NCBI GenBank assembly: GCA_018725565.1 | Contig: QLUR01000011.1 | Location: 1-64,000, forward strand | DNA length: 64,000 bases | Direction of reading: 5' to 3' | Origin: Bacillota bacterium | Lineage (GTDB): Bacteria; Bacillota; Dethiobacteria; Dethiobacterales; Dethiobacteraceae | In this document: one piece after another, positions 8,233 to 59,784 of the stretch | Position numbering within the stretch: position 1 is the stretch's first letter | Layout of the letters: each line of letters starts with the position of its first letter | Notes under the pieces: model-generated | Told to the model about the DNA's origin: nothing | The model's input: the letters and a program-made list of their open reading frames with translations, nothing else | The model's database searches: none | Position numbers and translations under genes: made by a program

Positions 8233-9545
8233 TATACCACCCGTTCCAATACCAGCGGGCCTGCCTGCGGCGCGCTGTCCCCAAAAGCATAGGCGGTCTC
8301 CAGTAAGGCTGCAGCCGGAGCAATTGTTTCTGGCCCGGAGGAGAACAGTTCCGCCAACAATTCGCCGCGGCTCACCGCATCACCGCATTTTTTATAGAGC
8401 CGTATCCCGGCCAGCAGATCGACCGCATCACCTTTTCTCTTACGCCCTGCCCCGAGCGCCATGGCGGCATCGCCCGCTGCCCTGGCATCAAGGCGGGTGA
8501 GATAGCCGTCGCTGTTCGCCAGCAGTTCGCCCTTAGCACGCGGAACGCCCAGTCTGTCCGGGTCGTCAACTATGCGGGCATCGCCGCCCTGTCCGGCTAT
8601 AAAGCGCCTCATCGCTTGCAGGGCCGTGCCGTCTGCCAGTAATGAAGTCAGCCTGTGGCGGGCGGCGGCAAAGTCCCGCTCTTTATCTGCCAGCAGCAGC
8701 ATCTCGGCCCCGAGATGCAGACAAAGGTCCCGCAAATCCGCAGCCCCCTCGCCTCGCAGCGCCTGCAGCGCCTCAATTACTTCCAGATGGTTGCCTACTG
8801 CCTGGCCGAGCGGTTGCTCCATGGCTGTCACAAGAGCCACCGTACGACGGCCGAGACTTTTGCCGATAGAAACCATCAGCGCGGCCAGTGCTGCGGCATC
8901 GGAGAGAGAACGCATAAAGGCGCCGCTGCCTACTTTGACGTCAAGCAGTAGGCCTTTCGCGCCGGCCGCAATTTTTTTGCTCATCACAGAGGCGGCAATC
9001 AGCGGAATGCTGTCCACTGTGGCCGTCACGTCCCGCAAGGCATACAGCTTGCCGTCGGCGGGCACCATATCCGGCGACTGACCGGTGATGGCCAAACCCG
9101 TTTCAGCAACCTGCCGGGCAAACTCGTCCCGGGCAAGTTCGGTGCGGAAGCCGGGAATGCAGGATAACTTGTCAATCGTCCCACCCGTGTGGCCAAGGCC
9201 GCGGCCGGACATTTTGGCCAGCGTGACACCGGCGGACGCGAGCAACGGCAAGAGAACAAGTGTCGTCTTGTCACCCACACCGCCTGTGGAATGCTTGTCC
9301 ACCACCGTCCGCCCCAAAAAAGAAAAATCGAGCTGCGCGCCGGAATCAGCAAGAGCGCAGGTCAGAGCCGATGTTTCCCGCTCGTCCATGCCGCGCAGGT
9401 AGACGGCCATCAGCCAGGCGGCCGCCTGGTAGTCCGGGATCTCGCCCGCTGTGTACCGGTCGATAAAGAACCTGACGGCCTCATCAGACAGGGCCGCACC
9501 GTCTCTTTTCTGCCGGATAATGTCTATGGCACGCACTACTGACAC
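8232..9545 (-). CDS. pdp: pyrimidine-nucleoside phosphorylase
   Basis: The 437-residue protein cleaves uridine, thymidine or deoxyuridine with phosphate to give the base and (deoxy)ribose-1-phosphate. The family signature [15 protein letters not shown] is intact, as are the [10 protein letters not shown] phosphate loop and the [10 protein letters not shown] segment. The N-terminal helices begin [13 protein letters not shown], the usual start of the family. The GTG at 9545 overlaps the end of deoB by 10 bases, so the two are translationally linked. DeoB converts the pentose-1-phosphate product to pentose-5-phosphate. The stop codon abuts repeat copy C. Thymidine phosphorylase (deoA) is the close alternative. 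Confidence 0.9.
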
Positions 9546-10708
9546 AGCCCCATTTCACAGCAAAAACTGGTCCCGGCCGCCGGCCGGGCGATTCTAAGCA
9601 GGCAGGCGACCGTGGCGCCCACGTCAGCGAATGTTTCCCTGGTGCCCAGCGGCACCGGCCTGACCTTGTTCCCGATGGCCAGCAGCGGCACATACTCCCG
9701 CGTGTGATCGGTATGGGGGAATGTAGGGTCACAGCCGTGGTCGGCGACTATAAACAGGATATCCTGCTCTTTCATCCCGGACAGGACGAGAGCCAGCTGA
9801 GCGTCAAAGCGTTCCAGGGCGTGCCCGTAACCGGCAACGTCATTGCGGTGACCGTAAATCATGTCAAAATCGACCAGGTTGGTGAACAGCAACCCGCGCG
9901 GGAATCGTGAAAGAGCGGCCTGCAGCCGGATCATGCCGTCATCGTTGTTTTCGGTATGCAGCGATACGGTGATGCCGCGCCCGGCAAAAATATCTGGTAT
10001 CTTGCCGATACCCACCACCTCCTGCCCTGCGGCTGACAGCATATCCAGCACCGTCTGCCTGGGGGGCGGCAGCGAATAGTCCTTGCGGTTTGCCGTACGG
10101 CGGAAACTGCCGGGGACACCGGTAAAGGGACGGGCTATAACCCGGCCGACGGCGAACTCGCCGCGGAGGAGGCGGCGTGCCCCCTCACACCAGGCATAAA
10201 GCTCGGCCAACGGGACAACTTCCTCGTGAGCTGCAATCTGAAAAACGCTGTCGGCCGAAGTATAGACTATCGGGCAACCGGTCCGCAGGTGTTCTTCGCC
10301 GAGCCGGTCAATTATTTCAGTCCCGGAAGCCCTGATATTGCCAAGCACCCCTCTGCCTGTCAGCTGCTCAAAAGGTTCCGTGACAGCCGGCGGGAAACCT
10401 TCCGGGAAAAGAGGAAACGGCTTGTCTAAAATCAACCCCATCATTTCCCAGTGCCCTGTTGTGGTATCTTTACCGGGGGAACGCTCCGCCATTTTACCGA
10501 AAGCAGCCGAGGCCCTTTCCGGGCACGGCACGCCTTCCACATCAGTCAGGCAACCCAGGCCGAACGATTGCAGGAGCGGGACGTTCAGCCCTCCTGTCGC
10601 CTTGCCGATATTGGCCAGGGTGTTACTGCCCTCGTCCCCATAAAGAGAGGCGTCGGGAAGCGCTCCCACGCCCAGGCTGTCCAGTACAATAATTATCACG
10701 CGCTCGAT
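9536..10708 (-). CDS. deoB: phosphopentomutase
   Basis: The alkaline-phosphatase-fold mutase interconverts (deoxy)ribose-1- and 5-phosphates using two Mn ions. Metal and active-site motifs are present: [13 protein letters not shown] at the N-terminus, [11 protein letters not shown] with the phosphorylated Thr, and [19 protein letters not shown] near the C-terminus. The start is unclear. AGGAGG sits 8 bases before an ATC codon (10708), giving the expected [11 protein letters not shown] start. The nearest GTG (10699) is 17 bases from the site and would clip strand 1, and an ATG at 10759 has no ribosome-binding site and lies inside xerD. The chosen start is therefore tentative. It sits between xerD and pdp, as in many Firmicutes. 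Confidence 0.88.
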
Positions 10709-10727
10709 TGAGTTGACCTCCTTCGGC

Positions 10728-11615
10728 TCAGGCCCTGGGGTGGGACCTGTCATAAACATACTTCAGTTGATTCTTAGAGATCTGGGTATAAATCTGTGTT
10801 GTGGAAATATCAGCATGACCAAGCATTTCCTGAACAGAGCGCAGGTCAGCGCCGTTCTCCAGAAGATGTGTGGCAAAGGAGTGGCGCAAGGTGTGCGGCG
10901 TAATTTCTTTTTTAATACCGGCTTGCCGGGCATATTTCTTCAGGATTTTCCAGAAGCCCTGGCGGGTCAGGCGCTTGCCGTGCTGGTTTACGAACAGGGA
11001 TATCTCGGATGTCTTGCGGGCCAGTTTCGGGCGGCTTCCAGTCAGGTAGCTTCTTACCTGGCAGACAGCTTGTGAGCCAAGAGGGACAATGCGCTCTTTA
11101 CTCCCCTTGCCGATGCAGCGCAAAAACCCGGCTTCCAGGTTGATATTTCCCAGATCAAGGGATATCAATTCCGAAACGCGCACCCCCGTGGCATAAATCA
11201 CTTCCAGCATCGCTTTGTCGCGCATACCGGTCACTTGTCGTTCATCCGGCTGTTCCAAAAGCAATACTACCTCCTGCGTGGAAAGGATCCGCGGCAGTTT
11301 CTTTTCTTGCCTGGGGAACTGCAGGTCCACGGCCGGGTTGTTTTCTACCAGCTTCTCCTGGAAAAGATAATGATAAAAGGAGCGGATAGATGCGAGGTTG
11401 CGCGAGCGGGTCGCTGCGGCTTTACCGGCTGCTTGCAGGGTATAAAGATAATCAGTAATCTGCTCACTCCCTACTTCCTGCAGATTCCCTACCTTATTTT
11501 GCCGCAAATATGTACAAAAAAAACTCAGATCCCGATTGTAAGACGAAAGCGTATTATTAGCCAGTCCTTTTTCCACCGCCAGATAATGTATAAATTCCTT
11601 AAGCGTCTTGTCCAT
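10728..11615 (-). CDS. xerD: site-specific tyrosine recombinase XerD
   Basis: The 295-residue recombinase resolves chromosome dimers at dif. The N-terminal SAM-like DNA-binding domain (about 1-100) precedes the catalytic domain with the full set of residues: Arg146 (TGVRVSEL), Lys170, His241-x-x-Arg244 ([10 protein letters not shown]), His267 (LGHADI) and nucleophile Tyr276. The length is typical and there is no sign of decay. The ATG follows AAGGAGAG. The order yqzK-like, xerD, deoB, pdp matches the conserved Firmicute neighbourhood, which supports a housekeeping XerD rather than a phage integrase. Confidence 0.93.
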
Positions 11616-23384: not shown

Positions 23385-23985
23385 AAAAAAAGACTTTATC
23401 TTGATTATAAAATGTTACCGTAAGTGAGCAACCCTGCAAGTAAACGTTACGGCTTGAGGTCCAGCAGGTTTTCCCAACCGGCCGCCAGAATGTCACCATT
23501 CTGACCGTTTCCGTTTCAGACCGGTTCTGCCGTGTTGCCAGCGGCAGGGCTGGATTGCCACTTAGTCCGTACTTTAATCCCTGCAAAGTCTCCCTGTCAG
23601 GAACAGTCTAGGGGTTTTCCCCGATAATACAGAACACGCTTTCTATCCTCTTTTGCAGTGCAGGTTTCATTTGCCACACTCCACCTGCACCACTCAAGGC
23701 AGGCTACACTGTACACAGCGCGCACCGCATACAGGTTCTTCCCAAGCTGTAATCCTTTACCCAAAAGGTAATTCACCACACGCTTTGGGTCTCCACGGGG
23801 CCAGGGTCTACGCCTGCATGCCTTTGCAGATCGCCCCGATCCCTTAACTCCCAGCACCAGCCCCCGACTGGGCGTCGGCGGCCCGCACCAAGAACTTCAT
23901 CGGTGTGCCCTTTACGGATTTTTAGGCCCGTCCTCGAAAGCGGTTGTACTAACTAGAATACTGCGCCACCTACGGTTTCATGTTA
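23385..23985 (-). ncRNA. ole: OLE RNA (ornate, large, extremophilic)
   Basis: About 600 bases without a credible protein gene lie between the ispA terminator and oapA. The length, strand and neighbours (xse, ispA upstream; a DxxxD membrane protein and dxs downstream) are those known for OLE RNA loci of anaerobic and extremophilic Firmicutes. The stretch is GC-rich and full of short inverted repeats, for example around 23850-23940, as expected for a structured RNA. An apparent 86-residue frame inside it is basic, Cys/Arg-rich and featureless. Boundaries are estimates: the 5-prime end from the promoter and the 3-prime end from the known size. The assignment rests mainly on context, as I cannot run a covariance model. 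Confidence 0.8.
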
Positions 23986-52006: not shown

Positions 52007-52747
52007 CTAGTTTAGGTACCATTCCAGGATTTGCCGCCCGGCCAGGGCCGTCACCAGGGCGGCCAGAGCCAGGAACGGCCCGAACGGGATAGCGTCCTTG
52101 CGCCCCTTGATTTTCAGCAACAGCAGCGCTCCGCCGACCACCCCTCCGGAAATAAAGGCCAGCAACAACAGCAGCAGCGTCCCCGGCAGGCCGGAGTAAA
52201 AGCCGAGCGGCAGCATCAGCTTGACGTCGCCGCCGCCCATGCCGCCCTTCGTCACCACGGCCAGCGCCAGCAGCAGCAGGCTGCCGGCCAGCGCTCCCCA
52301 CACCGCGCTGCCTAGCGGCACCTCCGGCCAGAAAATCTGCCGGACCACGGCAACCCCGGACAGCAGAACAACCAGCCGGTTGGGGATCAGCTGGTGCTCC
52401 AGGTCAATAAAAGCAATTATGATTACAACGGCAAAGAAGGCGGCGCTTGTAGCAAAGGAAGCGGTCAGACCCAGCTGACGCCAGATCAGGAGAAAAACTA
52501 TTCCGGTCAACAGTTCCACCAGCGGATAGCGCCAGGAAACTGGCGCCGCACAGCCGCGGCAGTTTCCGCGCTGCCAGAGCCAGGAAATAACCGGCACGAG
52601 TTCCGCCGCGCGCAAGCGCCGGCCGCAGGACGGGCACTTAGACGGCGGGAAAACGATTGATTCCCCCCTTGGCAGGCGGCAGATGCAGACGTTTAAAAAA
52701 GAACCGACCAGTAACCCCAGGACAAAAACCAGCACGCCGTCCGCCAT
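52007..52747 (-). CDS. pilD: prepilin peptidase/N-methyltransferase
   Basis: The 246-residue membrane aspartic protease has the N-terminal methyltransferase zinc region (CPSCGRRLRAAELVP, GNCRGCAAPVSWRYPLVELLTG), several transmembrane helices and the two active-site aspartates in IAFIDLEHQLIPNRL and GGMGGGDVKLMLPLG. It cleaves and N-methylates the prepilins encoded around it. It lies between PilV-like and the 86-residue coiled-coil gene. Confidence 0.95.
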   Translation of the reverse strand: MADGVLVFVLGLLVGSFLNVCICRLPRGESIVFPPSKCPSCGRRLRAAELVPVISWLWQRGNCRGCAAPVSWRYPLVELLTGIVFLLIWRQLGLTASFATSAAFFAVVIIIAFIDLEHQLIPNRLVVLLSGVAVVRQIFWPEVPLGSAVWGALAGSLLLLALAVVTKGGMGGGDVKLMLPLGFYSGLPGTLLLLLLAFISGGVVGGALLLLKIKGRKDAIPFGPFLALAALVTALAGRQILEWYLN

Positions 52748-52773: not shown

Positions 52774-53034
52774 TTAAACTGCCTTCTGCTCTAGTCGTTC
52801 TATGCGCTTTTCAAGTCGTGCAATGTCTGAAAATACTCCTTGGTTAATTACATAATTGATTTCCGCAACGTCTTTCCTTATTGCTGTTACTTGTTTTATC
52901 AGGTTTTCCTGTCCCTTTACTAACGCTTCTTGACCTATGACTAATGTTTCTTGTCCCTTTTCAAATCGGTTTACGGATGTTTTCATTTCCTTTAACTCAT
53001 GGAGAATGGCTGCCAATAGATCTTTTTCTTGCAT
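52774..53034 (-). CDS. small coiled-coil protein with heptad repeats
   Basis: The 86-residue protein has three GQExLvx heptads (GQETLVI, GQEALVK, GQENLIK) followed by a leucine-zipper-like C-terminus (DIARLEKRIERLEQKA). It is preceded by an A-rich ribosome-binding region. The GQE words recall the 11-residue repeats of the protein at 54475. It lies between the major pilin and pilD. The function is unknown. Confidence 0.6.
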   Translation of the reverse strand: MQEKDLLAAILHELKEMKTSVNRFEKGQETLVIGQEALVKGQENLIKQVTAIRKDVAEINYVINQGVFSDIARLEKRIERLEQKAV

Positions 53035-53219: not shown

Positions 53220-53732
53220 CTATCTGGTGGTGCCAAGCCCGTTGGGCGAGACCCAGGTAAAGCCGGCTCTGCCGGCTGGGATGATGGGGGCTGCTGGGGG
53301 GGCTGGGGTATCAGGCACAACAATATCGCTAGAATCATACCGGACCGCATAGAGTGGATGCGTTCCGGGAGGTAGCCCCGTTGGCACGGCCGGCAGCGCC
53401 TCTGCTGGATCGGTGATATCGCCGTCGCCATTGCCGAAGTGAGCGTCTATGAAGGCTATGCCGGAAGGAGTAGTGCCATCAAGCGTCTCCGGATACCTCA
53501 ACCGCGGGCCGGCGGCGGTAATCCCCAGGTAAAAGGCGTCCAGGGCGTTTAAGATCATGCGTTCGTTGGCGATATCCGCCCCGACACGCGCCGCGCGGAT
53601 GTTTTCCGTCACGCGCGGCACGGCGATGGCCGCCAGGATGCCGAGGATGGCCACCACGACCAAGAGTTCCACCAGGGTGAAACCGCGCCTGTTACGGCGG
53701 CTGCGCTGCAAAACAACAGCAATTTTCAGCAT
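53220..53732 (-). CDS. pilA: major type IV pilin-like prepilin
   Basis: The 170-residue prepilin has a basic leader (RSRRNRRG) cleaved before FTLVELLVVVAILGILAAIAVPR, a textbook class III signal with Glu at +5 and the long hydrophobic alpha1 helix. The C-terminal domain is proline-rich (PDTPAPPAAPIIPAG). It starts at ATG behind AAAGGAG. The cyclic-di-GMP riboswitch lies about 480-560 bases upstream on the same strand, with repeat copy E between. By position and signal it is the most likely main subunit, but this is inference. Confidence 0.88.
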   Translation of the reverse strand: MLKIAVVLQRSRRNRRGFTLVELLVVVAILGILAAIAVPRVTENIRAARVGADIANERMILNALDAFYLGITAAGPRLRYPETLDGTTPSGIAFIDAHFGNGDGDITDPAEALPAVPTGLPPGTHPLYAVRYDSSDIVVPDTPAPPAAPIIPAGRAGFTWVSPNGLGTTR

Positions 53733-54063
53733 TATTTCAACTCCTTTAATAAATTTCGAGCTGTACGACAGAGCTACTAAAACAATAGAAATATTTGTTC
53801 ATTTTCTTCGGACAAAACTTCCCCTAAATTTGTCTTACTAAAAGATACTTCCTGTCTGCTTGTGCGTGTCCGTACGCAGACAGGCGTGTCCGCTGCCTGA
53901 AACCCCCTCTCACCGTTTATTTTCGCTGCCAACCGACCACGATGCCGCGCCGGGGCTTGCCCCGCAGCGGGGCTTGAAATGGCGAATTAGGTAGCGATTT
54001 CAAGCCTATCAGCAAAAATTCGCCTTTGTTTACCATTTTCCTTCCACTTTTCCTTACTTATTT
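53733..54063. other. hairpin-rich leader between the riboswitch and the pilin
   Basis: No gene is visible. The stretch holds CTGTCTGC/GCAGACAG around 53851-53883, CCCCGC/GCGGGG near 53957-53976 and GGCGAATT/AATTCGCC near 53980-54023. These could be leader structures or insertion remnants. I could not identify a convincing promoter next to the pilin. Confidence 0.4.
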
Positions 54064-54139: not shown

Positions 54140-54161
54140 TGCTGTCAGGGCATACTGCAGC

Positions 54162-54187
54162 AAAAAGCTTCAGCCGGAGCTGAAGCC
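54162..54187 (-). terminator. terminator of the cyclic-di-GMP riboswitch
   Basis: GCTTCAGC and GCTGAAGC form a perfect 8-bp stem with a 4-base loop followed by TTTTT on the minus strand. It lies about 20 bases after the end of the riboswitch aptamer, so it is the likely expression platform. Confidence 0.85.
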
Positions 54188-54207
54188 TTATAAAACAAAC
54201 TCCTGCT

Positions 54208-54292
54208 CTTCGGCGGCCCGGCTGTCAATAGGCTCATGGCCCTTAGACCCGCGGCTTTGCGTCCCAGCCTTTCGGCAGGTTAGCCTTTTCGG
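54208..54292 (-). ncRNA. cyclic-di-GMP class I (GEMM) riboswitch
   Basis: The minus strand contains the GEMM-I landmarks in order: AAAGGCTAACCTGCCGAAAG with the GNRA tetraloop, GGGACGCAAAGCC (the conserved junction), GCGGGTCTAAGG (tetraloop receptor side) and a closing GC-rich helix. A promoter TTGACG-17-TATCCT starts about 35 bases before the aptamer and a strong terminator follows. The pilin gene is the next gene downstream. Signal-dependent termination in this position would tie pilin expression to cyclic-di-GMP; whether the ligand turns it on or off cannot be read with certainty. Confidence 0.85.
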
Positions 54293-54332
54293 TTCAGGGT
54301 TAATTGCGAAGCACTTTGTTACCTCTGACACA

Positions 54333-54361
54333 AGGATACGACACCCGACAGATTTCGTCAA
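54333..54361 (-). promoter_or_regulatory. sigma-A promoter of the riboswitch transcript
   Basis: The minus strand reads TTGACG, 17 bases, TATCCT. The predicted start (about 54326) lies 34 bases before the aptamer. Confidence 0.7.
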
Positions 54362-54474: not shown

Positions 54475-55032
54475 TTACTTCATCCGGCGCAGAATATACT
54501 CGTCGTGCCTGATTACCTCCGCCTCAATCCGGTCCAGCTTTTCGGAATTTAACTGGTAACCGTCAAATAAAGCCTTAAGCTTAGCGCCATGGTCGTTTTC
54601 GATTCTGACCACGCTTTTTTCCACAAAAGACAGCCGCTCTTCCAAAGACGACAGTTTTCGGTTGACAACACTGAACCCTTCCTTCATCTCTGTCCGCAGC
54701 TGCTCCTGGCCGTCCTTCATCTCAGTCCGCAGTTGCTCCTGACCGGCCTTCATCTCTACCCGCAGCTGCTCCTGGCCGTCCTTCATCTCTGCCCGCAGTT
54801 GCTCCTGACCGGCCTGCATCTCTGCCCGCAGTTGCTCCTGACCGGCCTGCATCTCTGCCCGCAGTTGCTCCTGGCCGGCTGTCAGCTCTGTCCGCAGTTG
54901 CTCCTGGCCGGCTGTCAGCTCTGTCCGCAGTTGCTCCTGACCGGCTGTCAGCTCTGTCCGCAGTTGCTCCTGGCCGCCCTTTAAGTCATTGTAGATCCTG
55001 GTCATAAGCTCCAGGATTTTTTCATTTTCCAT
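54475..55032 (-). CDS. coiled-coil protein with nine 11-residue repeats
   Basis: The 185-residue protein has a short N-terminus, nine copies of GQEQLRxExxx (99 residues) and a C-terminal coiled coil (SVVNRKLSSLEERLSFVEKSVVRIENDH, EKLDRIEAEVIRHDEYILRRMK). There is no signal peptide or transmembrane helix. The 11-residue period is shared with the protein at 48724. The ATG at 55032 has GGAGG 9 bases upstream. It lies between pilC and the riboswitch. The function is unknown; a filament or scaffold is possible. Confidence 0.75.
   Translation of the reverse strand: MENEKILELMTRIYNDLKGGQEQLRTELTAGQEQLRTELTAGQEQLRTELTAGQEQLRAEMQAGQEQLRAEMQAGQEQLRAEMKDGQEQLRVEMKAGQEQLRTEMKDGQEQLRTEMKEGFSVVNRKLSSLEERLSFVEKSVVRIENDHGAKLKALFDGYQLNSEKLDRIEAEVIRHDEYILRRMK
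54679..54975. repeat. tandem 33-bp coding repeats
   Basis: Nine 33-bp units (for example GCAGTTGCTCCTGGCCGGCT) encode the 11-residue repeats of the protein at 54475. Three pairs of neighbouring units are nearly identical, pointing to recent duplication. They are coding, without spacers, so not CRISPR. Confidence 0.85.
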
Positions 55033-55059
55033 TTCGGACATCCTCCTCCGAATATAGAT

Positions 55060-56316
55060 TTACTGGATATGCTGAAAGATTTCAAACATGGGCGTGACGA
55101 TGGCTATCACGATGGTGCCGACGATGATGGCTACGCCAAGAATCAGGATTGGCTCAATGACAGCGCTGAGGCGGGAAACGGCATAGGCTACGTCCGCCTC
55201 GTAAAAGTCGGCGACTTTTCCCATCATGGTGTCAATGGCGCCGGTTTCCTCACCGATTTTCAGCATCTCGGTCAGCATGGGCGGGAAGATTGCGCTGGCC
55301 CGCAGCGGCGCCGCCATACTCTGGCCCTGCCGGATGCCGGCAGCCGACTTGGCTATGGCCTCTTCCACTATTTTATTGCCGGAAACCCGTCCGACCAGGA
55401 GCAAGGCGGGCAGCACGCCGACACCGGAGGCCAGTAATGTGGCCAGCGTACGGGAAAAGCGGGCGAAGATCACTTTCTGGTACAGCGGGCCAAAGACCGG
55501 CAGCCGCATTTTCAGCCGGTCCAGGAAGTAGGCGCCGCGGGCGGTGCGGACATAGCGGCGTAAAGCCAGGACAAGCAGCGCAAGACCAAGAAAAATAAAG
55601 GGCCACCACTGTTGCGCGCCGGTGCCAAGCGACATCAGTATCCTGGTAATCAACGGCAACTCGGCGCCCATACCGGCGAACATCTGGGCAAACATGGGCA
55701 AGACGCGGACGATCAGAAAAACTACCACCAGCAAAGCCACTACCATGATTACCGCCGGATAGGTAGAAGCCGACTTGACCTTTTCCCGCAGGTCATGCTC
55801 TTTCTCAAAGTAGTCGGCCAGTCGTTTCAGCGTTACGTCCAGGGAGCCGCTAAGTTCTCCGGCCTCCACCATATGGACTAAAATACGCGGGAAAAAAGGG
55901 CTGTGTTCGGCGAAAGCCTCCGCCAAGCCGCTGCCTTTTTCCAGCGCGGTGATAACTTCCTGTACTTTTTGCGCCAGGCTTTTGGGCCGCGTCTGAGCAG
56001 CTAAAATTTTCAGGGCGGCAAGTACTGTCATGCCCGCTTCCACGGCCGTGGCAAACTGGCGGCAGAAAACCATGAAATCACGGGAATTCGGTTTTTTGTC
56101 AGGGATAGCTGGCAGCAAACCCCGCTCCAGAGGTACTCCCGGCGCTTTGCTTTTGCCGGCCGGCCGCGCGGCGAGGCCGGCCTCCCTGATGCTGACAATG
56201 TAGAGCCCGCTTTCGCGCAGTTCCTGCGCCGCCTGGTGCGGCGCGGCCGCCGCCAGTTCGCCGCTGATGCTTTGTCCTTTGCCGTTCCTGGCCTGGTATT
56301 TATAGAGCGGCGACAT
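55060..56316 (-). CDS. pilC: type IV pilus platform protein PilC
   Basis: The 418-residue inner-membrane protein has the GspF N-terminal segment (YKYQARNGKGQSISGELAA), two repeated cytoplasmic domains with FCRQFATAVEAGMTVLAALKIL and RFSRTLATLLASGVGVLPALLL, and three transmembrane segments, ending IEPILILGVAIIVGTIVIAIVTPMFEIFQHI. It works with PilB and PilT. It lies between pilT and the 185-residue coiled-coil gene. Confidence 0.95.
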   Translation of the reverse strand: MSPLYKYQARNGKGQSISGELAAAAPHQAAQELRESGLYIVSIREAGLAARPAGKSKAPGVPLERGLLPAIPDKKPNSRDFMVFCRQFATAVEAGMTVLAALKILAAQTRPKSLAQKVQEVITALEKGSGLAEAFAEHSPFFPRILVHMVEAGELSGSLDVTLKRLADYFEKEHDLREKVKSASTYPAVIMVVALLVVVFLIVRVLPMFAQMFAGMGAELPLITRILMSLGTGAQQWWPFIFLGLALLVLALRRYVRTARGAYFLDRLKMRLPVFGPLYQKVIFARFSRTLATLLASGVGVLPALLLVGRVSGNKIVEEAIAKSAAGIRQGQSMAAPLRASAIFPPMLTEMLKIGEETGAIDTMMGKVADFYEADVAYAVSRLSAVIEPILILGVAIIVGTIVIAIVTPMFEIFQHIQ

Positions 56317-56336: not shown

Positions 56337-57410
56337 CTAATGGCGCGCTTCCAGTTCGCGGAGCATGCTTTCCGGGTCGACGGCGTAATTTAAGGCGTCT
56401 TCGTAGCTGATTTTGCCTTCCCGGTACAGAGTGCGTAAAGAAGCGTCCATGGTCTGCATGCCAAAACGGGCGCCGGTTTGCATCGCCGAATAAATCTGGT
56501 GCGTTTTGCCTTCCCGGATTAGGTTACGCACCGCCGGGGTCACCACCATCAGCTCGGTGGCGGCAATCCGCCCGTCTGAGTCGCGCAGGCGCAGCAGCTG
56601 CTGGGAGAGCACGCCGATTAGCGAGTTGGAGAGTTGTACCTTTATCTGTTGCTGCTGGTGAGGCGGGAAAATATCAATGATGCGGTCTACCGTCAGCGGG
56701 GCGTTGATAGTGTGCAGGGTGGCCATCACCAGGTGGCCGGTTTCGGCGGCGGTGATGGCGATGCTGATCGTCTCCAGGTCACGCATCTCGCCGACTAGGA
56801 TCACGTCCGGGTCCTGGCGCAAGGACGCCCGCAGGGCGTTGGCAAAAGTATGGCTGTCGGCGCCGATTTCCCGCTGGTTGACAATCGATTTGCGGTGACT
56901 GTGCAGATATTCAATGGGGTCCTCGAGAGTTAAAATATGGCAGGAACGCTGCTCGTTAATCACGTTGAGCATAGCCGCCAGCGTTGTCGATTTGCCGCTG
57001 CCGGTCGGCCCAGTCACCAGAAAAAGCCCTTTAGTGCGCTTGGTAAATGATTCCAACACCGGCGGCATATTCAGCCTGGAAAGAGACGGGATATTACCGG
57101 AGATGGACCGCAACGCCAGGCTGACCGAGCCGCGCTGGCGGAAAATATTAACGCGGTAGCGGCCCACGCCGGCAATACCGACGGAAAAGTCAATCTCCCC
57201 GCGCTTGCTAAAGACGGCCCACTGACTGTCGTTTAAAATCTGTCTGGCCATGCTTTCCGCGTCCTCCATGGTACACGGCGGGTAATCCAGGCGGACCAGC
57301 TCGCCGTGCAGGCGCATAATCGGCGGGACGTTGACCGAGATGTGCAGATCGGAGGCCTGCCTCTCAGAAATCTGCTGCATCAGTTCTTTGATAGCTGGTA
57401 ACGGCAGCAA
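56337..57410 (-). CDS. pilT: pilus retraction ATPase PilT
   Basis: The 357-residue ATPase starts at TTG behind GAGGGGG. It has PAS-like N-terminus (ERQASDLHISVNVPPIMRLHGEL), Walker A GPTGSGKSTT, the Asp box ILTLEDPIEYLH, Walker B VILVGEMRDLETI, the His box GHLVMATLHT and the AIRNLIREGK-like segment (AVRNLIREGKTHQIYSAM) that is specific to PilT. It retracts pili. Confidence 0.95.
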   Translation of the reverse strand: MLPLPAIKELMQQISERQASDLHISVNVPPIMRLHGELVRLDYPPCTMEDAESMARQILNDSQWAVFSKRGEIDFSVGIAGVGRYRVNIFRQRGSVSLALRSISGNIPSLSRLNMPPVLESFTKRTKGLFLVTGPTGSGKSTTLAAMLNVINEQRSCHILTLEDPIEYLHSHRKSIVNQREIGADSHTFANALRASLRQDPDVILVGEMRDLETISIAITAAETGHLVMATLHTINAPLTVDRIIDIFPPHQQQQIKVQLSNSLIGVLSQQLLRLRDSDGRIAATELMVVTPAVRNLIREGKTHQIYSAMQTGARFGMQTMDASLRTLYREGKISYEDALNYAVDPESMLRELEARH

Positions 57411-57413
57411 TCT

Positions 57414-59099
57414 TTATACCCCCTCAAAAACTACCCTGATAGCTTCGCTGATACTGGTAACACCCTCACTGACCAGACGCATCCCCTCTTCCTGCAGAGT
57501 AACCATCCCGGACCGCAGGGCGCTGTTCCGGATATCTTCCATGGGGCTGGAACGGACGATCAGGGAGCGCAGCTCGCTCGTTAAGGCCAGTACTTCGTGG
57601 ATAGCGGTGCGGCCGCGGTAGCCCGTTTCCTTGCACTCCCGGCAGCCCCTGCCCCGGTAAAAGACCGGCCGCTCGTGGCTCGCGCTGTAATGGTTGTAAA
57701 TGCTCAGCTCCGGTGGAGTCGGCGTGTAGACGGCTTTGCAGTCCGGGCAGATTTTGCGCAGCAGCCGCTGCGCCACAATGCAAATAACCGATGAGGCGAT
57801 CAGGAACGGCTCGATACCCATCTCGGCCAGGCGGGACAGGGCGCGCGGCGCGTCGTTGGTATGCAGCGTGGAAAAGACCAGATGGCCGGTCAGGGCGGCG
57901 CGGATGGCGATTTCCGCCGTCTCGGCGTCGCGTATTTCCCCAACCATGATAATATCCGGGTCCTGGCGCAGAATGGAGCGCAGCGCCGCGGCAAAGGTCA
58001 GCCCAATTTTGGTGTTGACCTGCACCTGATTGATGCCGTCCAGGCGGAATTCCACCGGGTCCTCCACGGCGACAGCGTTTTTTTCCGGAGTGGCGATGGC
58101 GTTTAAGGATGAATAAAGAGTAGTCGTTTTGCCGCTGCCGGTCGGCCCTGTTACCAGGACCATGCCGTAAGCCGCCCGCAGGCAGGCGCGAAAAATCGCC
58201 TCATTATGAGGTGAAAACCCGAGCTGCTCCACAGGCAGCAGCATTTTGGCCTTGTCCAGCACACGCAGGACCACTTTCTCGCCCTGCACCGTCGGCAGCG
58301 AAGAAACCCTGATATTGATTGGCCGCCCCTCAGCTTGCAGCGTAAAGCGGCCATCCTGCGGCAGGCGGCGCTCCGCGATGTTCATGCCGGAGATAATCTT
58401 GACCCGGGAAGTAATCAGCGCCTGCGTTTTTTTGGGGGAAATCATGATGTCGCGCAAAAACCCGTCCACGCGCAGCCGCACCTGCAAGCCGCCTTCTCGC
58501 GGCTCCAGGTGGATATCACTGGCCCCTTCGCTGACAGCCTGCTGGATAACCGAGTTGACCACCTTGACAATCGGTGCGTCATCCACCATCGCCGCCAGGT
58601 TTTCCTGGTCAGCCAGGTCCTTTTCCGCATCGTCAAACTGAAGTGCCGCCTCAGCCGATTCCTTGAGGCCGAAAACCTGGTCTATGGTCTGGCGGATAAC
58701 ACTCTCTCTGGCAATGACCGGCTCTACCTCGCAACCGGTTAACAGCGCCACATCGTCTATGGCCAGGATGTTGAGCGGGTCAGCCATGGCCAGGATGATT
58801 TTGTTTCCTTTGCGGGCCAGCGGGAGGACGGAGTACCGCTTGGCAAGATAGGCGGGGAGAGCAGTAGCCACCTCCTGATCCACCATGGCCGGATTTAACT
58901 CTACGGATAGGACGCCCAGCTGCTCGGCCAACAGGGCAATGATCTGGTTTTCCGTAAGCAACCCCTTGTCCACCAGAAGCTTGCCGAGCCGTTCCCGTTT
59001 GCGTCCTTGTTCCAGCAGCGCCTCCTCCAGCTGCTCTCCTGTAATCAGTCCCGCCTGCCGCAACATATCGCCCAGCTTTCGCCGCTGCCGGTTTGCCAT
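57414..59099 (-). CDS. pilB: pilus extension ATPase PilB with two MshEN motifs
   Basis: The 561-residue ATPase has, at residues 7-31 and 37-60, two MshEN-type motifs of the form RLGxxLxxxGLLxxxQxxxxLxxQ (RKLGDMLRQAGLITGEQLEE; RLGKLLVDKGLLTENQ). In MshE and related ATPases this motif binds cyclic-di-GMP. The rest is a GspE/PilB: HLEPREGGLQVRLRVDG, Walker A GPTGSGKTTT (318-327), Walker B IIMVGEIRDAETAE, a tetracysteine zinc site (CPDC and CREC) and the C-terminal domain. The ATG is behind GGAGGTGG. It is the first gene of the pilus run. Confidence 0.94.
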   Translation of the reverse strand: MANRQRRKLGDMLRQAGLITGEQLEEALLEQGRKRERLGKLLVDKGLLTENQIIALLAEQLGVLSVELNPAMVDQEVATALPAYLAKRYSVLPLARKGNKIILAMADPLNILAIDDVALLTGCEVEPVIARESVIRQTIDQVFGLKESAEAALQFDDAEKDLADQENLAAMVDDAPIVKVVNSVIQQAVSEGASDIHLEPREGGLQVRLRVDGFLRDIMISPKKTQALITSRVKIISGMNIAERRLPQDGRFTLQAEGRPINIRVSSLPTVQGEKVVLRVLDKAKMLLPVEQLGFSPHNEAIFRACLRAAYGMVLVTGPTGSGKTTTLYSSLNAIATPEKNAVAVEDPVEFRLDGINQVQVNTKIGLTFAAALRSILRQDPDIIMVGEIRDAETAEIAIRAALTGHLVFSTLHTNDAPRALSRLAEMGIEPFLIASSVICIVAQRLLRKICPDCKAVYTPTPPELSIYNHYSASHERPVFYRGRGCRECKETGYRGRTAIHEVLALTSELRSLIVRSSPMEDIRNSALRSGMVTLQEEGMRLVSEGVTSISEAIRVVFEGV

Positions 59100-59367
59100 T
59101 ATCCACCTCCTCCGCCAGACCCTTGCTATGTTCGCTTCATTAATAAGCGACTTTGGCGCCTGATCTGCGTCAGGCGGCCAACGGCACCTTCAGACAATGC
59201 TGTTCGACAGAAAGGCGCCTTAGTCCTGCTCCGCACAAGGCGTCTCCAGAAATGTCCGGCAAGGATGGCCTCACCAGCAGCCAGCTCAAAGTTTCCAGTT
59301 GGCAAGAACGCATAAAACTCCTGTCAAAAGGTTAGCTTAACCGCCAAAAGCACTGGCGGTGAATAAA

Positions 59368-59784
59368 ATGAACAATACCAGCGGTTATACCCTTCTTGAA
59401 ACAGTAACAGTGATCTGCCTGGTGACTGCGCTGACAGCAGCCGGTATCCCTCCGCTTTCCCGGCACCTGGATACGGCCAGAAACAACGTGCTGGCGTACA
59501 ACGTGCGTGTATTGCAGCAGACAATAGAGATTTTTGCCGTGCTGGAAGGGAGTTACCCCGCCTGCCTTACTGAACTGGTCGAGGAAGGCTACCTTTACAG
59601 CCTGCCGGTTAACCCCTGGACCGGGCGGCCTGACTTTTGCTACGACCCGGTAAGCGGAAGAATCAGGTCGGCTCCCTTGGCAAATGAACCTGACGGACGA
59701 AGCTGCCCGAGATTCATTTTTGGCGGCGGGCGGCGGCAAGCAGCGCCCGCCGCATTACTTCCAGCGGCGGTTCATGTCCGGTAA
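59368..59784 (+). CDS. prepilin-like protein on the opposite strand
   Basis: The 138-residue protein starts at ATG 59368 (a GTG at 59359 is possible). MNNTSG is followed by YTLLETVTVICLVTALTAAGIPPL, a class III-like prepilin signal with Glu at +5, and AYNVRVLQQTIEIFAVLEGSYPACLTELVEEGYL, typical of pseudopilins such as GspG/competence types. Its last 71 bases overlap the 3-prime end of aroE on the other strand. CCGCCA/TGGCGG form a hairpin just before the start (59341-59359). Confidence 0.75.
   Translation: MNNTSGYTLLETVTVICLVTALTAAGIPPLSRHLDTARNNVLAYNVRVLQQTIEIFAVLEGSYPACLTELVEEGYLYSLPVNPWTGRPDFCYDPVSGRIRSAPLANEPDGRSCPRFIFGGGRRQAAPAALLPAAVHVR

Follow-up and report, generated by a model that had tools for sequence, protein, structure and literature searches.

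Tandem MshEN motifs in PilB and a class I c-di-GMP riboswitch in one pil cluster of a Dethiobacteraceae bacterium

The pil cluster of a bacterium of the family Dethiobacteraceae (Bacillota; GenBank assembly GCA_018725565.1) probably reads c-di-GMP twice, at the MshEN domain of the PilB motor and at a riboswitch acting on pilin transcription. Both elements lie in the window, the whole stretch of 64 000 nucleotides that was analysed (contig QLUR01000011.1, positions 1–64 000). Based on its motifs and predicted fold, PilB is likely to be a c-di-GMP receptor of known kind, and since a near-complete tandem motif and a genuine class I riboswitch share one pil cluster, two c-di-GMP read-outs would converge on one pilus.

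The pil cluster and its riboswitch

The plus strand of 57414–59099 is broken by stops and the pilB open reading frame reads on the minus strand. Pfam domains identified in PilB were T2SSE (residues 172–555) and MshEN (63–148), the Pfam MshEN model representing the C-terminal subdomain without the two motifs. The T2SSE ATPase domain and the adjoining pilT and pilC identify PilB as an extension ATPase; the closest solved chains were Thermus PilF (6f8l) and the PilB chains 5zfr, 6olj and 5tsg. The order on one strand is pilB-pilT-pilC, a gene for a 188-residue repeat protein, the riboswitch and a pilin gene beginning at 53732 (Table 1). The cluster contains two small coiled-coil-like genes, one of 11-residue repeats (GQEQLRTELTA type) at 54475–55041 (minus), whose product matched an apolipoprotein model below cut-off, and a second at 52774–53034 (minus). 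A divergent open reading frame of 141 residues adjoining pilB (59359–59784, plus) has a prepilin-like N-terminus (GYTLLE) and no Pfam match. Elsewhere in the window, a full-length OLE RNA was found at 23408–23985 (minus; 476 bits).

Table 1. Features of the pil cluster in the window
Feature	Coordinates	Strand	Remarks
pilB, extension ATPase	57414..59099	minus	561 aa
Modelled N-terminal domain, residues 1-160	58620..59099	minus	pLDDT 92.3, pTM 0.80
MshEN motif I, residues 8-31, KLGDMLRQAGLITGEQLEEALLEQ	59007..59078	minus	K8 L9 G10, L24, L28, Q31
MshEN motif II, residues 37-60, RLGKLLVDKGLLTENQIIALLAEQ	58920..58991	minus	R37 L38 G39, I53, L57, Q60
D107, likely counterpart of MshE D108 by sequence	58779..58781	minus	nearly invariant in relatives
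pilT, retraction ATPase	56337..57410	minus	ORF, Pfam
pilC, platform protein (T2SSF)	55060..56316	minus	
Promoter-like TTGACG-17-TATCCT, just 5' of aptamer	54333..54361	minus	consensus match only
Class I c-di-GMP riboswitch aptamer (RF03167)	54208..54294	minus	66.6 bits vs gathering score 59
Possible antiterminator, aptamer 3' strand GCCG (54214-54211) with 54176-54173	54173..54214	minus	weak
Strong intrinsic terminator (arms of 11 nt, 4-nt loop, U tract)	54159..54189	minus	begins ~22 nt past aptamer
Pilin gene, first 3' of riboswitch	53220..53732	minus	
Prepilin peptidase (PilD)	52007..52747	minus	

The riboswitch that the sequence-only reading had placed at 54208–54292 is genuine, matching RF03167 at 54294–54208 on the minus strand above the Rfam threshold. 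Its alignment contains GGC and GCC, that is, a G at the ligand-selecting position, which we take to correspond to G20 of Vc2, and the ligand-pairing C. The same reading had the cluster controlled by the second messenger at the level of both RNA and motor protein; the two do share a pil cluster, but the RNA cannot gate the motor gene. With pilB, pilT and pilC all lying 5' of it in one orientation, it could not control pilB in cis, whereas control of the pilin operon is possible. A further riboswitch was looked for 5' of the window's pilB and none was found (best score 4.5 bits with filters off). The pilin leader also contains two interleaved inverted repeats with arms of 13 and 11 nt (53971–54027, minus), which would fold either into hairpins that exclude each other or into a pseudoknot; they were rejected as a dispersed element, being single copy in the genome with no second copy in the window.

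The direction of the switch was considered against two published layouts. In pilM, an ON switch, the aptamer strand carrying the ligand-pairing C is taken up into the terminator itself; in Cd1, an OFF switch, this C is instead captured by an antiterminator, and the terminator stands apart (PMC9262584). In the window the terminator does not overlap the aptamer (it spans +22 to +43, −15.3 kcal/mol), an ON-type overlap terminator was not found, and the alternative hairpin, which takes up the strand containing the ligand-pairing C, lies within the predicted minimum for transcript ends 54177–54168. This corresponds to the published Cd1 layout (PMC9262584) and hints at an OFF-type platform, on which the riboswitch would shut down the pilin operon when c-di-GMP is high. 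The sign of the RNA would then be opposite to that of the motor, with pili only at intermediate c-di-GMP. Against this reading, the antiterminator pairing was unexceptional, being as stable in 363 of 2000 dinucleotide and 31 of 2000 mononucleotide shuffles, and it was still in the fold when aptamer stems P2/P3 were enforced. Most relatives, moreover, look ON-type: in 19 of 23 loci with an aptamer after pilT or pilB, the aptamer strand was used by a hairpin with U tract at ≤ −14 kcal/mol, against 32 of 276 dinucleotide-shuffled controls (the overlap terminator was missing in L014, L283, L281 and L246), which points to an ON-type platform as the typical one. Because the pairing is unexceptional in shuffles, we regard the OFF reading for the window as evenly balanced.

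The MshEN domain of PilB

MshEN domains are described as having a pair of 24-residue motifs, five residues apart, each with six key residues (PMC5013675), and the extended consensus of contacts per motif is (R/K/L)LG...L...L..Q, position 1 having been widened to R/K/L (PMC11731258). PilB has the two motifs of this length, separated by the five residues GRKRE. Residues 7–31 and 37–60 had initially been matched to one pattern twice; motif II fits that pattern in full, whereas motif I spans residues 8–31 and departs from it at position 1 (K8, R in the first pattern) and position 12 (I19 rather than L, allowed by the published consensus). At the ligand-contact positions 11 of 12 residues fit the extended consensus, the one miss being the conservative I53, with every Gly and Gln contact and five of six Leu contacts kept. 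When residues 1–90 were shuffled 20 000 times, the best shuffle scored 10 contacts and none reached 11; elsewhere in PilB the contact score was 3–5. The key ligand residues, whose absence would have refuted the sequence-only reading, are not missing. Core positions 6, 7, 11 and 12 and the Gly at position 10 all fit with one exception, R14 in motif I, which occupies core position 7, where L/V/I is expected; V, L or I stands there in 101 of 112 PilBs and R in two. At the position of I53 (motif II position 17) Ile was found in 24 of 112. A score of 11 or 12 contacts was shared by 29 of 121 PilB-like ORFs with an N-terminus, a set drawn from the window and the first 120 loci, which puts the window PilB in the top quarter and yet makes it not exceptional.

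Lysine at position 1 of motif I is tolerated and is found in the tightest binders known. Three binders with this residue, PilF GSPII-B (6 nM), DgPilB2 (13.5 nM) and CtPilB (53 nM), are all reported to bind more tightly than MshE (500 nM) (PMC11731258), and by analogy K8 may possibly raise affinity. D107 is the likely counterpart of MshE D108, the single ligand contact contributed by the C-terminal subdomain (PMC5013675).

A model of residues 1–160, built from 32 aligned sequences of the window and related loci, contained the four-helix and the alpha/beta subdomains. In the comparison with MshE structures that the sequence-only reading had suggested, the model superposes most closely on c-di-GMP-bound MshE (5htl; Z 18.5, 2.0 Å, 138 residues; Foldseek was also run) and on c-di-GMP-bound PilF GSPII-B (8pdk; Z 15.9, 2.4 Å, 135 residues). 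Same-fold non-binders were also matched, XpsE (2d28) with Z 14.8 and PilF GSPII-A with Z 13.0, and the fold by itself is no proof of c-di-GMP binding.

PilB drives pilus extension, and from these data we infer that its MshEN domain most likely binds one c-di-GMP between two half-sites. The guanines would stack on the leucine-type clusters L9/I53/L57 and L38/L24/L28, under R37 and K8, with polar contacts from the amides of G10 and G39 and from Q31 and Q60. As in the MshE family, binding would be expected to promote extension. The class I riboswitch with its own terminator, placed before the pilin operon, would let the same messenger set the amount of pilin, so that c-di-GMP might be read at two speeds, fast at the motor and more slowly at transcription of the building blocks.

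A possible but doubtful alternative is that the domain binds c-di-GMP and that the output is PilB stability or other signalling and not motor activity. A review reports altered PilB levels in M. xanthus mutants and an unresponsive ATPase in C. perfringens PilB2, and the latter observation, ATP hydrolysis unaffected by binding, also counts against the two-read-out reading; on the other side, V. cholerae MshE function is reported to track affinity in several single mutants, with the exception of a non-binding triple mutant that is constitutively active (PMC5013675).

That the domain is a structural module which has lost binding, as in XpsE or PilF GSPII-A, appears unlikely. Several PilB-type N-domains of the same fold are reported as non-binders (PMC12002112, PMC5013675), the model resembles XpsE as well, and R14 and I53 are off consensus; the rarity of R14 and the case of GSPII-A, which has a near-motif and the fold and fails to bind, also weigh against PilB as a receptor. 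However, the contacts kept in PilB differ from the state of XpsE, in which eight key residues were lost (PMC5013675). Non-binding by GSPII-A has been attributed to motif deviations, inter-subdomain contacts and a longer, stably capped helix alpha-1 (PMC12002112). In the PilB model helix alpha-1 begins at residue 9, after K8, and would leave the pocket open, although the model may just copy known forms.

Judged from its sequence, the genome can make and sense c-di-GMP: it contained 11 GGDEF matches (nine over cut-off), one EAL, two PilZ and three class I riboswitches, and no match to the class II riboswitch. A second MshEN ATPase is encoded on another contig (L192, G000:C39) by a PilB-like gene at 9518–11176 (plus) that keeps 11 of 12 contacts and has Phe for the last Gln; a riboswitch was not found within the 18.8 kb examined.

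Riboswitches and motif integrity in related pil clusters

A covariance model built from 28 aptamers and run on 41, 80 and 100 loci gave matches in 9, 4 and 25 loci, respectively; the window and L173–L175 were part of this model, and Rfam detected all four independently. Loci L213–L312 were 100 picks among the matches listed (best matches of 397 genomes), leaving aside several near-duplicates and a gene interrupted by an in-frame stop, and as such they yield fractions that are not prevalences. In 21 loci a class I aptamer directly followed a motor gene (pilT in 20, pilB in L268) and pilC was the first gene recognised after it; in L230 and L246 it followed pilT, and the next gene was not identified as pilC. 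The PilB motifs of L014 and L283 are identical, and the two loci may represent one species. The aptamer was directly 5' of pilB in four loci (L173, L174, L175 and L013), 5' of the pilin gene in three (the window, L016 and L306) and elsewhere in or near the cluster in L056, L190, L193, L197, L200, L202, L295 and L296. Class II riboswitches were found 5' of the PilB match in G213 (34 nt), G179 (34 nt), G102 (60 nt) and G194 (94 nt), the first three under the Rfam gathering score with E ≤ 3e-7.

On a PilB tree of 136 rows, riboswitch presence required at least 14 changes, 12 of them forced by well-supported branches, with gain and loss indistinguishable. The sister of the window PilB was L173 (support 99); its riboswitch lies 5' of pilB, which means that the two sisters carry the element in different places. 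At the ligand-selecting position the L173 aptamer (10408–10492, minus) has A, in contrast to the G of the others, and its ligand may therefore differ; G20A and cGAMP-type GEMM-I variants have been described (PMC6274999). Chance proximity to pilB, conceivable with RF01051 matches in 216 of 247 relatives and as many as 17 per genome, is very improbable given the repeated placement between motor gene and pilC, the excess of ON-type platforms over shuffled controls, the class II elements at pilB in four other genomes and the number of label changes on the tree.

In three home-class pil clusters (L193:812–2834, L197:2051–4125 and L200:12547–13593) a sigma-70-like gene with regions 2, 3 and 4 lies 3' of a class I c-di-GMP riboswitch. 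An adjoining close paralogue (45–59% identity in the set) keeps region 2/3 but ends in a PilO-like C-terminus where region 4 would be; it is possibly a pseudo-sigma tied to the pilus machine.

Co-selection of both layers would lead one to expect better motifs in riboswitch-linked PilBs. At the level of loci, at least 11 contacts were found in 22 of 30 linked and 49 of 104 unlinked PilBs (Fisher p=0.013). With one median per family (14 linked, 46 unlinked) the difference was gone (Mann–Whitney p=0.81), and none was found outside the home class (p=0.21). The idea that riboswitch and intact motif are statistically coupled was therefore rejected. As riboswitch linkage is no predictor of motif integrity across families, tight co-selection is argued against, which counts against the two-read-out reading in so far as the layers need not be co-selected, as do L197, L200 and L202, home-class PilBs with degenerate motifs that also have riboswitches nearby. 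These three were among the PilB-like ORFs dropped before the counts because their best motif pair was off register; at least 10 of 12 contacts were present in 28 of 30 linked PilBs, or 28 of 33 with the dropped rows restored. The riboswitch was present in 14 of 52 sampled families. An intact MshEN domain is the norm in sampled PilBs of the phylum, and the riboswitch is an addition.

The operon split after the motor genes could tentatively be read as a division in which, in many Gram-positive-type bacteria of the phylum, motors are always made and held by MshEN while platform and pilin await the RNA. Such an arrangement would form a coherent AND-like gate wherever the two layers agree in sign; in the window, with an RNA of OFF type, the signs would oppose and pili would form only in a band of c-di-GMP.

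Comparison with known pilus systems

Within this phylum, riboswitch and MshEN are not unusual companions. The literature covered was found to describe neither a riboswitch placed between pilT and pilC nor a general rule of pairing; this literature included few subscription papers, and the accessible text of PMC7988955 and PMC8835794 contained no such placement or pairing rule. The arrangement offers a testable design rule, in which one messenger is read by RNA and motor in one pilus machine, and strains with riboswitches at pilB, between pilT and pilC or at the pilin gene form a natural series in which the layers are separable by single mutations. Such experiments would show whether fast (protein) and slow (RNA) responses to c-di-GMP add or oppose. 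What most merits testing is the recurring split of the operon behind its motor genes.

PilB resembles Vibrio cholerae MshE in its two 24-residue motifs, 5-residue spacer, fold and likely Asp contact from the C-terminal subdomain, and differs in the Lys at motif I position 1, in R14 and I53, and in belonging to a Gram-positive-type pil cluster with a riboswitch. With Thermus thermophilus PilF GSPII-B it shares the Lys at motif I position 1 and the fold; unlike PilF, it has one MshEN domain and not three, and keeps the Arg of motif II. Clostridium perfringens PilB2 is reported to bind c-di-GMP (PMC11656802, PMC6958937), and the word riboswitch is absent from the accessible text of a C. perfringens pil paper. 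As for the RNA, two known layouts of GEMM-I-type aptamers serve for comparison: the platforms before pilC in relatives are like that of Geobacter pilM, an ON layout sensing cGAMP, whereas the pilin platform of the window is like C. difficile Cd1, an OFF layout with disjoint terminator. A two-layer design already exists at the C. difficile pilA1 locus, where the pilin gene has an ON riboswitch of class II (PMC6366702, PMC6200980) and PilB is reported to have MshEN or to be similar to binders (PMC9765702, PMC8653836). There, the class II element precedes pilA1 and the pilB operon lies downstream, whereas in the window a class I element follows pilB-pilT-pilC. The combination of both receptors was thus already known from C. 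difficile; their recurrence and placement are new.
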